DNA from: Helicobacter pullorum NCTC 12824
GTDB lineage: Bacteria > Campylobacterota > Campylobacteria > Campylobacterales > Helicobacteraceae
Reading direction: 5' to 3'
Length of the DNA stretch: 64,000 bases
NCBI RefSeq assembly: GCF_017979475.1
Contig: NZ_JAERIT010000005.1
Coordinates: forward strand, 116,907 to 180,906
Positions 30,348 to 33,721 of the stretch are shown here, piece by piece. The notes beneath the pieces are model-generated. The model worked only from the letters and a program-made list of their open reading frames with translations, ran no database searches and had not been told where the DNA came from. Each line of letters begins with the position of its first letter. The stretch's first letter is position 1. Both the position numbers and the translations under genes were made by a program.

Positions 30348-31409
30348 TTACATTATTTCTGTGGTTGCTTTGAGTTTTTGCTTGTCAAAATGCGTATAGA
30401 TTCTTGAGGTATCTAGACTTGCATGCCCTAGGGCTTCTTGGACTAGCACCAAATCTTGACTTTTTTGATAGAGCAGGGTAGCAAAGGAATGTCGCAACAT
30501 ATGCGCGCCATTTTTTTCTTTGCGGATTCCATTAGTAAGCAAGACTTGTTCTACAATGCGGCTAACATAAGCTTGTGTGAGTTTTTTGGCTTTGTGATTG
30601 CAAAACAATAATTCATTTTCTACTTCCAAAGGACGAGAGTTAATCCAAGCCCCAAAATCACTATGAATATTTTTCGCCTTTATCATCACTACGCGGGGCT
30701 TATTGCCTTTGCCTTTCACTTGAATCACATAAAATTCTCCATCTAACATAATATCTTTGATTTTGAGATTCAAAGCCTCTCCCACGCGTATCCCGGTATA
30801 AATGATGGTTTTTAATAATAATCGATTTCTAGCACCCAAATCTTGATGTTTAAAGGGATAAGTTTCAATTCCATTTAAAAATCTCTGCACTTCCTCTTCA
30901 TTCATGTAAGAAGGCAATTTTTGACCACTTTTCCCACGCAATCCACCCCAATTTTTTAGCTCGATTCTAAAAATATAAGAAGTGCTATCATCATCTTCGT
31001 TTTGCTTGTCAATAAAGCCAAAAAAGTTAATTAATGCAATGCGGTAATTTTTCTTTGTTGCATCAGAAAGTGAGCTTGTGTGAATTGTCAAAAACTCTTT
31101 TAACATTTCCTCATCGACTTCCTTTAAAGAAGCCAAACCAAGATAATTCAAATATTCATAGAGTTTCATCAAAGGAGTAAAATAAGTATTAATGCCGATT
31201 AATCCAGCATTCCTGCATTGTTTGCAAATTTCTTGCAGTTCTTGAATGCTCTTTGCACCTTTACGCAAGGCATTCAAAGCCAAAATAATATCTTTTTTGT
31301 TTTGCACTTGATGATTGGAAAGACTATTGAGTTTGCTATAAACAAATCGCTCAATCCAAAATAAGAGATTTTGTGCAAAATCATCTTTAAAATCAATTGG
31401 ATAACGCAT
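30348..31409 (-). CDS. xerH: tyrosine recombinase XerH (chromosome dimer resolution)
   Basis: The 353-residue recombinase has an N-terminal core-binding domain and a C-terminal catalytic domain with the residues expected of tyrosine recombinases: Arg in YTGIRVGEALN, Lys in VKGKGNKPR, HMLRHSFATLL (HxxR), GHASLDTSRIYTHFD (His and the nucleophilic Tyr). The size and the N-terminal sequence fit the single-recombinase XerH system of epsilonproteobacteria, which works at difH with FtsK. A difH-like palindrome lies 80-100 bases upstream of the start. An integrase of a mobile element is less likely since no such element is visible. Confidence 0.9.
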   Translation of the reverse strand: MRYPIDFKDDFAQNLLFWIERFVYSKLNSLSNHQVQNKKDIILALNALRKGAKSIQELQEICKQCRNAGLIGINTYFTPLMKLYEYLNYLGLASLKEVDEEMLKEFLTIHTSSLSDATKKNYRIALINFFGFIDKQNEDDDSTSYIFRIELKNWGGLRGKSGQKLPSYMNEEEVQRFLNGIETYPFKHQDLGARNRLLLKTIIYTGIRVGEALNLKIKDIMLDGEFYVIQVKGKGNKPRVVMIKAKNIHSDFGAWINSRPLEVENELLFCNHKAKKLTQAYVSRIVEQVLLTNGIRKEKNGAHMLRHSFATLLYQKSQDLVLVQEALGHASLDTSRIYTHFDKQKLKATTEIM

Positions 31410-31610: not shown

Positions 31611-31694
31611 ATGAAAAATTATCTTTCTACAATTAAAGACAATATTGTCTATCACCCAAATTCAATAGAAAGGAGAAAAATTGAAGCTAAATAA
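31611..31694 (+). CDS. 27-residue leader peptide overlapping the next small ORF
   Basis: ATG preceded by AAAAAGGAACC, encoding a polar 27-residue peptide that begins MKNYLSTIKDNIVYH and ends in RRKIEAK. Its last 14 bases overlap the start of the hydrophobic peptide ORF in another frame, and its codons for IERRK contain that ORF's AAAGGAG ribosome site. This arrangement would couple translation of the two, as Mok does for Hok in plasmid R1. No homologue recognised. The ORF is short, so it could be chance, but the ribosome site and overlap favour it. Confidence 0.5.
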   Translation: MKNYLSTIKDNIVYHPNSIERRKIEAK

Positions 31695-31758
31695 GATACT
31701 CACAAGCATCTTGTGCATTATTATACTGCTTTGCATTTTAATTAGCAAGTGCTACTAG
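31681..31758 (+). CDS. 25-residue hydrophobic peptide, type I toxin-like
   Basis: TTG start 5 bases after AAAGGAG. The peptide begins MKLNKILTSI, is followed by a run of Ile, Leu and Cys long enough for one membrane span, and ends in ILISKCY. A terminator stem begins at its last codons. The sequence resembles the 20-residue peptide at 32804 in its last ten residues (L-L-x-I-L-x-x-K-C). Small single-span peptides in short self-contained units are typical of type I toxins, but small respiratory or transporter subunits look similar. Function is inferred only. Confidence 0.55.
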   Translation: MKLNKILTSILCIIILLCILISKCY

Positions 31759-32119: not shown

Positions 32120-32542
32120 ATGAAAAGTATTAAAACTTTGGCATTAGCTGGATTGTCAATTTTATTTGTGGCGTGTGGTGGAAATAATTTGGTAGAAATG
32201 AAAAACGATAGAGGTTGGAATCAAGAGCTTTATGAATTCGGATTAAGTGAAATACAAAAGAAATACCTTGATTATAAGCCCTACCACTATGAATCTTTAA
32301 AAACAGCCTCCTTTTTGCAAACAGGAGTAGAATCTTATAGATTTGCACAAGATTTTATAAATAGACTTGAAAGCAATGCAGTGCTTTATCCAAAAGACGC
32401 CTCATATAATGATATGGTTTTCCTCTATAAAGATGATAAAGATTTTAGATTAGTGTGGATTTCTTGCAACATTCAAACGATAGGCAAAAACAAAGGACAA
32501 AAATATTGCAGGTTTAATGATAAATCAGAAGGTATTTATTAA
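32120..32542 (+). CDS. small putative lipoprotein of unknown function
   Basis: The 140-residue product begins with MKSIKTLALAGLSILFVACGG, a signal peptide with lipobox FVAC and Cys at about residue 19. The mature part is polar and aromatic-rich (KKYLDYKPYHYESL, then FLYKDDKDFRLVWISC) and I recognise no domain. It has its own promoter and a terminator-like hairpin just after the stop. It stands alone between the two small hydrophobic peptide loci. Location in the envelope is inferred from the signal peptide. Confidence 0.75.
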   Translation: MKSIKTLALAGLSILFVACGGNNLVEMKNDRGWNQELYEFGLSEIQKKYLDYKPYHYESLKTASFLQTGVESYRFAQDFINRLESNAVLYPKDASYNDMVFLYKDDKDFRLVWISCNIQTIGKNKGQKYCRFNDKSEGIY

Positions 32543-32749: not shown

Positions 32750-32755
32750 TATAAT
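32750..32755 (+). promoter_or_regulatory. -10 element for the 20-residue peptide locus
   Basis: TATAAT in GTTGTATAATTTAAG, predicting an RNA start at about 32761-32763. The RNA would then begin with the very bases that pair with its own 3' region (32921-32932). Confidence 0.65.
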
Positions 32756-32762
32756 TTAAGTG

Positions 32763-32774
32763 GATTTAAGGTTA
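32763..32774 (+). promoter_or_regulatory. 5' half of long-distance RNA pairing (partner 32921-32932)
   Basis: GATTTAAGGTTA at 32763-32774 is a perfect 12-base reverse complement of TAACCTTAAATC at 32921-32932. Two G-U pairs and one A-U pair extend it on the outer side to about 15 pairs. It joins the predicted 5' end of the peptide mRNA to the region just inside its terminator. In H. pylori AapA-type toxin mRNAs this kind of pairing keeps the full-length transcript inactive. Confidence 0.7.
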
Positions 32775-32803
32775 GTCGGCTTTCTTGAAAAAAGGAGGTT
32801 GAT

Positions 32804-32866
32804 ATGGCAGAAATGATTCTTGTTTTAATTGTTTTGTTGTTGCTTATCCTAGCAGTGAAGTGCTAA
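32804..32866 (+). CDS. 20-residue hydrophobic peptide, candidate type I toxin
   Basis: ATG 5 bases after a very strong AAAGGAGG ribosome site. The peptide is MAEM followed by a run of Ile, Leu and Val, ending in ILAVKC: a single predicted membrane span with a positively charged, Cys-ending C-terminus. The reading frame sits in its own unit with a -10 at 32750, a long-distance 5'-3' RNA pairing and a strong terminator. It resembles the peptide at 31681. The RNA design matches type I toxin mRNAs of Helicobacter (AapA family) although the peptide sequence is unlike AapA1. An antisense antitoxin RNA is expected but cannot be fixed from sequence alone. Confidence 0.65.
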   Translation: MAEMILVLIVLLLLILAVKC

Positions 32867-32903
32867 GATAAATCAATTAAATATTCAAACAAAGTTATTT
32901 TAT

Positions 32904-32970
32904 GCCACTTCCGCTAAAAGTAACCTTAAATCTATAAAATCTAAAAGCCATTTTAGCGGAGTGGCTTTTA
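32904..32970 (+). terminator. terminator with competing hairpins for the peptide mRNA
   Basis: GCCACTTCCGCTAAAA (32904-32919) pairs with TTTTAGCGGAGTGGC (32951-32965) with one bulged T, giving about 15 pairs, followed by TTTTAG. The 31-base loop contains the long-distance pairing partner and CTAAAAGCCA, which can instead pair perfectly with TGGCTTTTAG (32962-32971). The two folds exclude each other. Confidence 0.65.
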
Positions 32971-32971
32971 G

Positions 32972-33256
32972 AAAACTCCACCAACTTTTTAACTATTATT
33001 TTGCAAGATAATCAACTAAACTCATTTCATAGTTTGAATTAAATAAAAAAACATATTTAGTAATTACAAAAAAGTTGATATTGCTTGCAGCCTTTTGCAG
33101 AATCTACGCAATTGCTGTTATCATTGGGAAAATTTATTGAAAGTTAGAGTAACAGAGAGTCCCCCCCCCCCTTAAAATATCAATATTTTTTATCTATATT
33201 TCCATTGATTTACTTTATTATGCTAAGATTTTATCTATTTTTAGAAGGAAGGTAAA
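32972..33256. other. intergenic region with C11 tract upstream of the DUF411 gene
   Basis: No ORF is visible. It contains a C11 tract (33161-33171), 85 bases before the DUF411 start, then an AT-rich segment with ATTGATTTACTTTATTATGCTAAGAT that could hold the promoter. Confidence 0.6.
33161..33171. repeat. intergenic C11 homopolymeric tract
   Basis: Eleven C in a non-coding region upstream of a predicted promoter. Slippage here could change spacing of upstream promoter elements and so the expression level of the next gene; this is inferred. Confidence 0.85.
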
Positions 33257-33721
33257 ATGCAAAATAAAACAAAAAAGATGCTTTTTGCGGCTTTAATGGC
33301 TCCGCTTTGTATGTTTGGCAAAGAAGTCGATATTTATAGTAGCCCATTTTGTGGTTGTTGTATCAAATGGGGAGATTATTTGCAAAATAATGGCTATAAA
33401 GTCACTCACCACAAAAACGATGATTTTATGGCTATCAAAGAAAAGTATAAAATTGCTCCACAAAATCAAAGTTGTCACACAGGAGTAATTGAAGGCTATG
33501 CGGTAGAAGGACATGTGCCACTTAGTGCGATTAACTGGCTTTTGGAAAATAAGCCCAAAGATGTAGTTGGAATCTCAACTCCGGGAATGCCAATAGGAAG
33601 TCCGGGAATGGAACAAGGAAACACCAAAGAAGAATATCCGGTTGTTTTGCTTTATAAAAACGGAGATTCTAAGACTTTTGCTATTTACAAAGGCGATGAG
33701 CTGATTAAACAAGTTTTTTAA
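33257..33721 (+). CDS. DUF411 (CopG-type) metal-binding exported protein
   Basis: A 154-residue protein with a signal peptide (MQNKTKKMLFAALMAPLCMFGKE) and the DUF411 signature YSSPFCGCCIKWGDYLQ, plus SCHTGVIEGYAVEGHVP with a conserved His/Cys pair. Family members are periplasmic copper-related proteins found with copper resistance genes. It has an AAGGAAGG ribosome site. No copper gene is adjacent; it converges on an EamA transporter 2 bases away. The copper role is inferred from the family. Confidence 0.85.
   Translation: MQNKTKKMLFAALMAPLCMFGKEVDIYSSPFCGCCIKWGDYLQNNGYKVTHHKNDDFMAIKEKYKIAPQNQSCHTGVIEGYAVEGHVPLSAINWLLENKPKDVVGISTPGMPIGSPGMEQGNTKEEYPVVLLYKNGDSKTFAIYKGDELIKQVF

Follow-up and report, generated by a model that had tools for sequence, protein, structure and literature searches.

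Among the described type I toxin-antitoxin systems, the AapA/IsoA loci of Helicobacter pylori offer the closest comparison for the element examined here. In the portions of two reports that deal with them, these loci occur in several copies and comprise a short mRNA for a hydrophobic peptide, a lock formed by pairing of the 5' and 3' ends of the message, hairpins at the ribosome site, and an antisense RNA (PMC6733600; PMC8322730), and the passages on activation describe how trimming of the 3' end of AapA mRNA frees translation (PMC6733600). Our subject is a unit of about 210 bases on the plus strand of H. pullorum NCTC 12824 (contig NZ_JAERIT010000005.1), at positions 32750-32972 of a 64-kb stretch that we call the window and whose numbering is used for all coordinates (L and G numbers denote loci and genomes). 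The unit encodes a 20-residue hydrophobic peptide, MAEMILVLIVLLLLILAVKC, and has the 5'-3' long-distance interaction of AapA/IsoA; the family to which it belongs also shares the hydrophobic-peptide mRNA, a ribosome-site hairpin, a predicted antisense RNA, and multiple genomic copies. From the sequences of the unit and its relatives, we judge it probable that this is a type I toxin-antitoxin module whose 20-residue toxin would be silenced both by the fold of its own message and by an antisense RNA.

Two other systems share parts of this arrangement. The IbsC toxin of Escherichia coli, with 19 residues, is predicted to be transmembrane and is repressed by SibC RNA, according to the pertinent part of PMC8309996. 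Judging from the position of its promoter box, the antisense RNA predicted here would cover the whole open reading frame (ORF). Ibs/Sib loci are repeated paralogues in which the antisense RNA spans the ORF; to our knowledge Ibs has no 5'-3' lock of this kind, and the Glu at residue 3 and Lys at residue 19 that are usual in the present family set it further apart. No family named Ibs appeared among profile matches at E <= 10 for the window peptide or at E <= 5 for seven relatives, a weak test given short profiles and the HMMER filters. For hok/sok of plasmid R1, pairing of the 5' and 3' mRNA ends is cited in the relevant part of PMC6733600. The present family resembles hok/sok in this end pairing and in its plasmid-borne members, and differs from it in a peptide of 20 residues. 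The hok mRNA is inactive through 5'/3' end pairing, and the Hok peptide has about 50 residues.

The elements of the unit in the window are as follows.
32750-32755, plus strand: -10 box TATAAT of the toxin mRNA, read in the sequence.
32760-32774, plus strand: 5' strand of the end-to-end lock (the long-distance interaction), pairing with 32921-32935, with compensatory changes in relatives.
32775-32803, plus strand: hairpin sequestering the Shine-Dalgarno (SD) sequence, GTCGGCTTTCTT / AAGGAGGTTGAT, obtained by folding (-13.0 kcal/mol), with two-sided change in 8/10 pairs of a 22-member alignment.
32804-32866, plus strand: 20-residue hydrophobic ORF, probable toxin, identified by its reading frame and by family-wide protein-level selection.
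32897-32902, minus strand: -10-like box TAAAAT of the predicted antisense RNA, kept in most members.
32909-32919, plus strand: upstream element of an alternative 3' helix of 11 bp with 32951-32961; 1/300 shuffles are as good, and relatives have compensatory changes.
32921-32935, plus strand: 3' strand of the end-to-end lock, pairing with 32760-32774.
32940-32972, plus strand: terminator-like 3' stem-loop, with two-sided change in 11/12 pairs in relatives; its loop, 32951-32961, pairs with 32909-32919.

The toxin message is predicted to begin near 32762, and a -10-like hexamer lies upstream of most relatives' ORFs at a similar distance to the start codon. A strong ribosome site, AAAAAAGGAGG, ends five bases upstream of the start codon, and the hairpin at 32775-32803 buries AAGGAGG. 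The lock arms at 32763-32774 and 32921-32932 are 100% complementary over 12 nt, and the helix grows to 15 bp without gaps when G-U pairs are allowed, a score reached by 0/300 dinucleotide shuffles of the 3' region. The entire 215-nt RNA folds at -72.2 kcal/mol, against -39.8 +/- 4.3 kcal/mol in shuffles (z = -7.47; 0/200 as low). Its 3' part has two competing folds, a stem (32940-32950/32962-32972) and a helix with upstream sequence (32910-32919/32951-32960); when this part is folded alone, the minimum-energy structure is the stem and the centroid is the alternative helix. An earlier interpretation made from the letters of the stretch (the sequence-only reading) had already picked out the TATAAT, the 20-residue hydrophobic peptide with its very strong ribosome site, the exact 12-base complementarity, and two exclusive folds of the terminator region, and all of these are present in the unit.

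Searches for conserved loci in relatives, by DNA and by covariance (the latter proposed in the same reading), recovered a family of which 50 members were gathered from the Helicobacter side and from Campylobacter. When the 121 genomes of the bacterial family were searched with DNA, full-length relatives, 1-3 copies per genome, turned up in four congeners as well as in the window's genome; three short matches (L008, L013, L018) were inspected and are not members. A covariance model from nine sequences added two more divergent members, one of them in another genus. A model built from eleven sequences, R2, was run under stricter filters in the large searches. It matched 10/19 genomes of the window's genus (E <= 0.5), each of the 10 having at least one match with a small hydrophobic ORF, and 12/398 genomes of the order (E <= 0.05), including G186, which lacks the peptide. 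With part of the matches inspected, it also matched 18/49 genomes of genus g36, taken as Campylobacter (E <= 0.1), and 24/397 genomes of the phylum (E <= 0.01), all within two families. Paralogues occur, with up to 8 matches in one genome and, in one genome, tandem copies about 283 nt apart.

Membership was decided by filters for hydrophobicity, a leading Glu, Asp, Leu or Phe, a late Lys, and a ribosome site. From the 53 ORFs that passed, L051-881 and L068-1379 were removed as unrelated and L128+1516 as the same ORF read from an earlier ATG, leaving the 50. Members that had been recognised by eye were lost to these filters, among them G071, G419, G476 (L115) and the broken copy L005. The pattern GGAGG..ATGGCAGARRT occurred at 17 places, corresponding to 7 members and 10 unrelated long ORFs that were set aside. 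Among the R2 matches, L060, L062 and L073 were dropped for want of a peptide, G488 (L118) had no convincing one, and L055, L063 and L065 were opposite-strand matches to known members.

Comparison of 43 ORFs demonstrates, from their substitution patterns, that the reading frame is under protein-level selection. The proportion of synonymous differences (pS) was 0.59 and that of nonsynonymous differences (pN) 0.30, with pN below pS in 871/898 pairs; the sole shifted frame with stop-free pairs (frame +2, 153 pairs) showed the reverse, pS 0.26 and pN 0.43. Glu at residue 3 and Lys at residue 19 are present in 43/43 ORFs, although Glu/Asp at residue 3 and a late Lys were among the filters. In the paralogue L005 the frame is broken early and the RNA elements are retained, and the same genome holds intact copies. 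Neither the window peptide nor seven relatives had a Pfam match above cut-off; NCBIfam likewise gave nothing above cut-off (best 15.8 bits to SE2200, cut-off 30), and no Rfam family exceeded its cut-off for the unit. In the tandem array L128 (G479, C1:643859-645433), the RNA parts of the copies appear nearly identical and the first peptide is unlike the others, a pattern that fits an exchange of toxin ORFs inside a fixed RNA frame.

Compensatory change across the family demonstrates, at the level of aligned sequence, that four elements have been kept: the lock, the hairpin at the ribosome site, the 3' stem-loop, and the alternative 3' helix. In an alignment of 11 sequences, 95.6% of 526 cells pair and 23/49 pairs change on both sides, against 7.6 +/- 1.8 in shuffles (0/500); in an alignment of 22 sequences, the figures are 89.8% of 948 cells and 34/49 pairs, against 21.5 +/- 2.3 (0/500). 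The larger alignment was drawn from 23/28 loci, with L091, L092, L101, L102 and L103 omitted and L093 failing the threshold. Its lock pairs in 94.1% of cells, the ribosome-site hairpin in 93.5%, and the 3' stem in 97.0%. The sequence-only reading had named loss of the pairing without compensation as a refuting outcome; the reverse was seen, with two-sided change in 7/11 lock pairs. The alternative 3' helix, which is not one of the model's pairs, was scored on a MAFFT alignment that had not been fitted to it and pairs in 96.2% of 132 cells, with two-sided change in 7/12 pairs against 2.1 +/- 1.1 in shuffles (0/500), and sliding its strands lowered pairing to 38-54%.

Tests that need no alignment agree in direction. 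Gapless helices beat at least 95% of 300 shuffles in 20/28 members for the lock and in 17/28 for the alternative helix. In 46/50 members the best gapless lock helix comprises 7-15 bp and has its 3' strand at 49-63 bases beyond the stop codon, within a search range of 30-85. Cognate strands score higher than strands swapped between dissimilar members: the mean for the lock is 22.9 against 16.0 over 1974 swaps, which reach the cognate median in 4.9% of cases, and for the alternative helix 23.5 against 16.5, with 6.6%. An earlier comparison by Duplexfold with bulges, in which many copies were no better than shuffles, was uninformative because large bulges were allowed, and was replaced by the gapless helices.

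The other conserved feature, absent from the sequence-only reading, lies on the minus strand. A TAAAAT or better is found 20-42 bases past the stop codon in 48/50 members, at positions 23-35. Shuffles of the same stretch gave a mean of 10.2 and a maximum of 23, the plus strand 8/50, and four neighbouring stretches 2-7 on the minus strand and 1-20 on the plus strand. This conserved minus-strand -10 box points to a putative antisense RNA, which in the window is predicted to start near 32890 and to run leftward across the ORF and the 5' untranslated region.

Under the toxin-antitoxin interpretation, the message would be made and would fold shut by the end-to-end helix and the ribosome-site hairpin, remaining stable and untranslated. 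An antisense RNA, with its start about 25 bases beyond the stop codon, would cover the ORF and the ribosome site and trigger decay of the duplex; when its level fell, for example upon plasmid loss or stress, toxin would be made, and the peptide likely damages the inner membrane of its own cell. A switch may be provided by the alternative 3' helix, in which the loop of the 3' stem is one partner: it could open the 3' end and so expose the lock strand to trimming. The 3' arm of this helix also forms the loop and edge of the 3' stem, so a fully formed helix should pull the stem open, and in L006 the best fold is of this kind; the switch role is our proposal.

Several observations weigh against this interpretation or limit its evidence. 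Both alignments were fitted to the structure and the member-finding models already contain the lock, so both pairing counts lean towards the structure, and the shuffles take no account of relatedness and thus overstate independence. Helices failed to beat 95% of shuffles in 8/28 members for the lock and 11/28 for the alternative helix. RNAfold gives the lock a probability above 0.5 in 35/50 members and not in all, and in L006 the best fold gives up the lock in favour of the alternative helix. The antisense weight matrix also scores 20/50 on the plus strand, in the stretch from 45 bases past the stop codon. Of the 'strong terminator' in the sequence-only reading, the strong stem-loop stands but terminator status was overstated: in the window no U-tract follows the 3' stem, the U-run sits within its 3' arm, and a terminator scan of the window did not report the stem-loop at 32940-32972. 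Finally, two related ORFs, L072 (G409) and L132:3482 (the second copy on C. lari plasmid pCL2100), have a short leader and neither the lock nor an antisense box in the usual place; if the peptide is toxic, these copies need another control or have lost toxicity.

Access to the ribosome site raises further difficulties. In full-length RNA, the probability that the site is unpaired, P(unpaired), is below 0.2 in only 23/50 members and reaches 0.42-0.70 in six copies of the C. lari/peloridis/armoricus type, figures that rest on a crude choice of start and SD position. The folding models point to a primary transcript folded into an untranslatable form, clearly in 11 copies and more weakly in the C. 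lari-type copies, where the ribosome site is predicted to be largely open even at full length. Truncation of the 3' end in silico, for the window and 10 relatives, left the ribosome site paired in 11/11 (P(unpaired) <= 0.22), and removal of the 5' side raised SD accessibility above 0.5 in only 7/50 members. Since the site stays paired after 3' trimming, another step must be assumed, which may be 5' processing or displacement of the hairpin.

These folds bear on whether the unit is a diverged AapA/IsoA member or an AapB/IsoB (NikS) locus, the latter proposed in H. pylori as a degenerate type I pair in the sections concerned of PMC5385501 and PMC8322730. The host bacteria are related and the principle of a 5'-3' lock is shared with AapA, as described in part of PMC6733600, so that part of the AapA-like design put forward in the sequence-only reading stands; activation by 3' trimming finds no support in the in-silico folding of 11 copies, which, unlike AapA, have a stable local ribosome-site hairpin. 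The sequence-only reading was also right that the peptide is a different one: AapA1 has 30 residues against 20 here, and as a query (E <= 0.01) it matched 0/19 genomes of the window's genus, the window's own and 18 congeners, with matches confined to genera g2 and g3 among the 121 family genomes. Conversely, R2 had no sense-strand match in 12 AapA loci (E <= 1), with one opposite-strand match (15.3 bits, E 0.56), and in 34 genomes of the AapA-bearing gastric genus g2 it gave two weak matches only (L104 and L105; E 0.18 and 0.23), without a hydrophobic peptide under the script's filter. The arrangement also differs. Each of four AapA loci has a minus-strand TATAAT within the ORF, at 35 bases from the start codon, and the 3' strand of the lock, as read by eye, comes after the 3' hairpin; here the box falls outside the ORF, and the 3' strand of the lock comes before the hairpin. 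The covarying alternative 3' helix, and an occurrence in Campylobacter and on the H. apodemus side of Helicobacter, plasmids included, are further differences. The comparison with AapB/IsoB covers these R2 results in the gastric genus. We thus regard membership in either system as very improbable, and the unit as apparently AapA-like in its working yet separate from AapA in peptide, place of the antisense box, order of lock strands, and RNA model.

Two explanations that dispense with a toxin were also weighed. Unlikely, though less so than kinship with AapA or AapB, is a non-toxic, regulated small membrane protein, such as a modulator of a transporter or stress protein, with a message that happens to be under the control of RNA structure and an antisense RNA. 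A harmless peptide would allow for the two copies apparently lacking the RNA lock, and the peptides do resemble single membrane helices, like many regulatory small proteins, toxicity here being a prediction. However, a family that is multi-copy, tandem, patchy, and partly plasmid-borne, and that on two plasmids lies near other toxin-antitoxin genes, fits toxins better than housekeeping modulators, and the retention of RNA parts in the broken copy L005 is also more typical of a toxin. That the ORF is incidental to a small mobile repeat or to a structured RNA with a regulatory role is the least credible of all; it would account for strong conserved structure and for many copies, some of them near contig ends, but not for codon-level selection in the correct frame, nor for the similar-length ORFs with a ribosome site in the collected members (the ribosome site being a filter).

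The family extends to plasmids. With L067 as query, 11 Campylobacter plasmid records matched, 8 of them conjugative by MOB-suite; a plasmid search with a Helicobacter query and a search of phage records with two queries gave no match. About 470 bases separate the unit, which has no annotation there, from HicA in both C. coli pCC14983A-1 and C. jejuni pSKBC25; HicB and RelE/ParE follow beyond, and the former also has YafQ nearby. An invertase/recombinase gene lies near the unit on C. lari, C. peloridis, and C. armoricus plasmids, the last of which holds four copies. The peptide has no annotation in any of the five plasmid regions viewed, and a hypothetical gene on the opposite strand has been annotated across the end of the unit in C. 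peloridis and C. armoricus.

Within the window, a tyrosine recombinase with a Phage_int_SAM_6 domain (30348-31409, minus strand) lies about 1.3 kb from the unit, and a 140-residue ORF with a lipoprotein-like start (32120-32542, plus strand), without Pfam match at E<=10, adjoins it. On the other side, a run of 11 C at 33161-33171, upstream of a DUF411 gene (33257-33721), is a candidate slippage site for phase variation. A second small hydrophobic ORF lies at 31681-31758 (plus strand), with a TTG start, 25 residues, a KLNKILTSILCIIILLCILISKCY core, and a strong ribosome site; its start is overlapped by a 27-residue ORF (31611), and an inverted repeat lies downstream. It has two partial DNA matches in the same genome (L148 and L149; 81-84%, with similar ATG-start ORFs) and none in 18 congeners, and perhaps represents another type I-like family.

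The literature searched, with T1TAdb outside its scope, held no published description of the present family; in the parts of that literature concerned with these bacteria, the cases found were the H. pylori AapA and AapB loci, and the main text of a C. jejuni differential RNA-sequencing (dRNA-seq) paper, PMC3656092, contains no toxin-antitoxin, small ORF, hydrophobic, or peptide wording. We hold in even balance the broader proposal that the unit belongs to an undescribed type I family of Campylobacter and the H. apodemus side of Helicobacter, found on chromosomes and conjugative plasmids, whose mRNA would act as a three-state device: the lock, the hairpin at the ribosome site, and a 3' helix serving as a switch, which would replace the 3' stem by upstream pairing and so determine when the lock opens. 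Type I systems are short and readily overlooked by gene finders. If the proposal is true, the covarying alternative 3' helix makes the opening of closed toxin mRNAs testable, and a toxin family that could have a part in plasmid stability or dormancy has been overlooked on many chromosomes and plasmids of Campylobacter.
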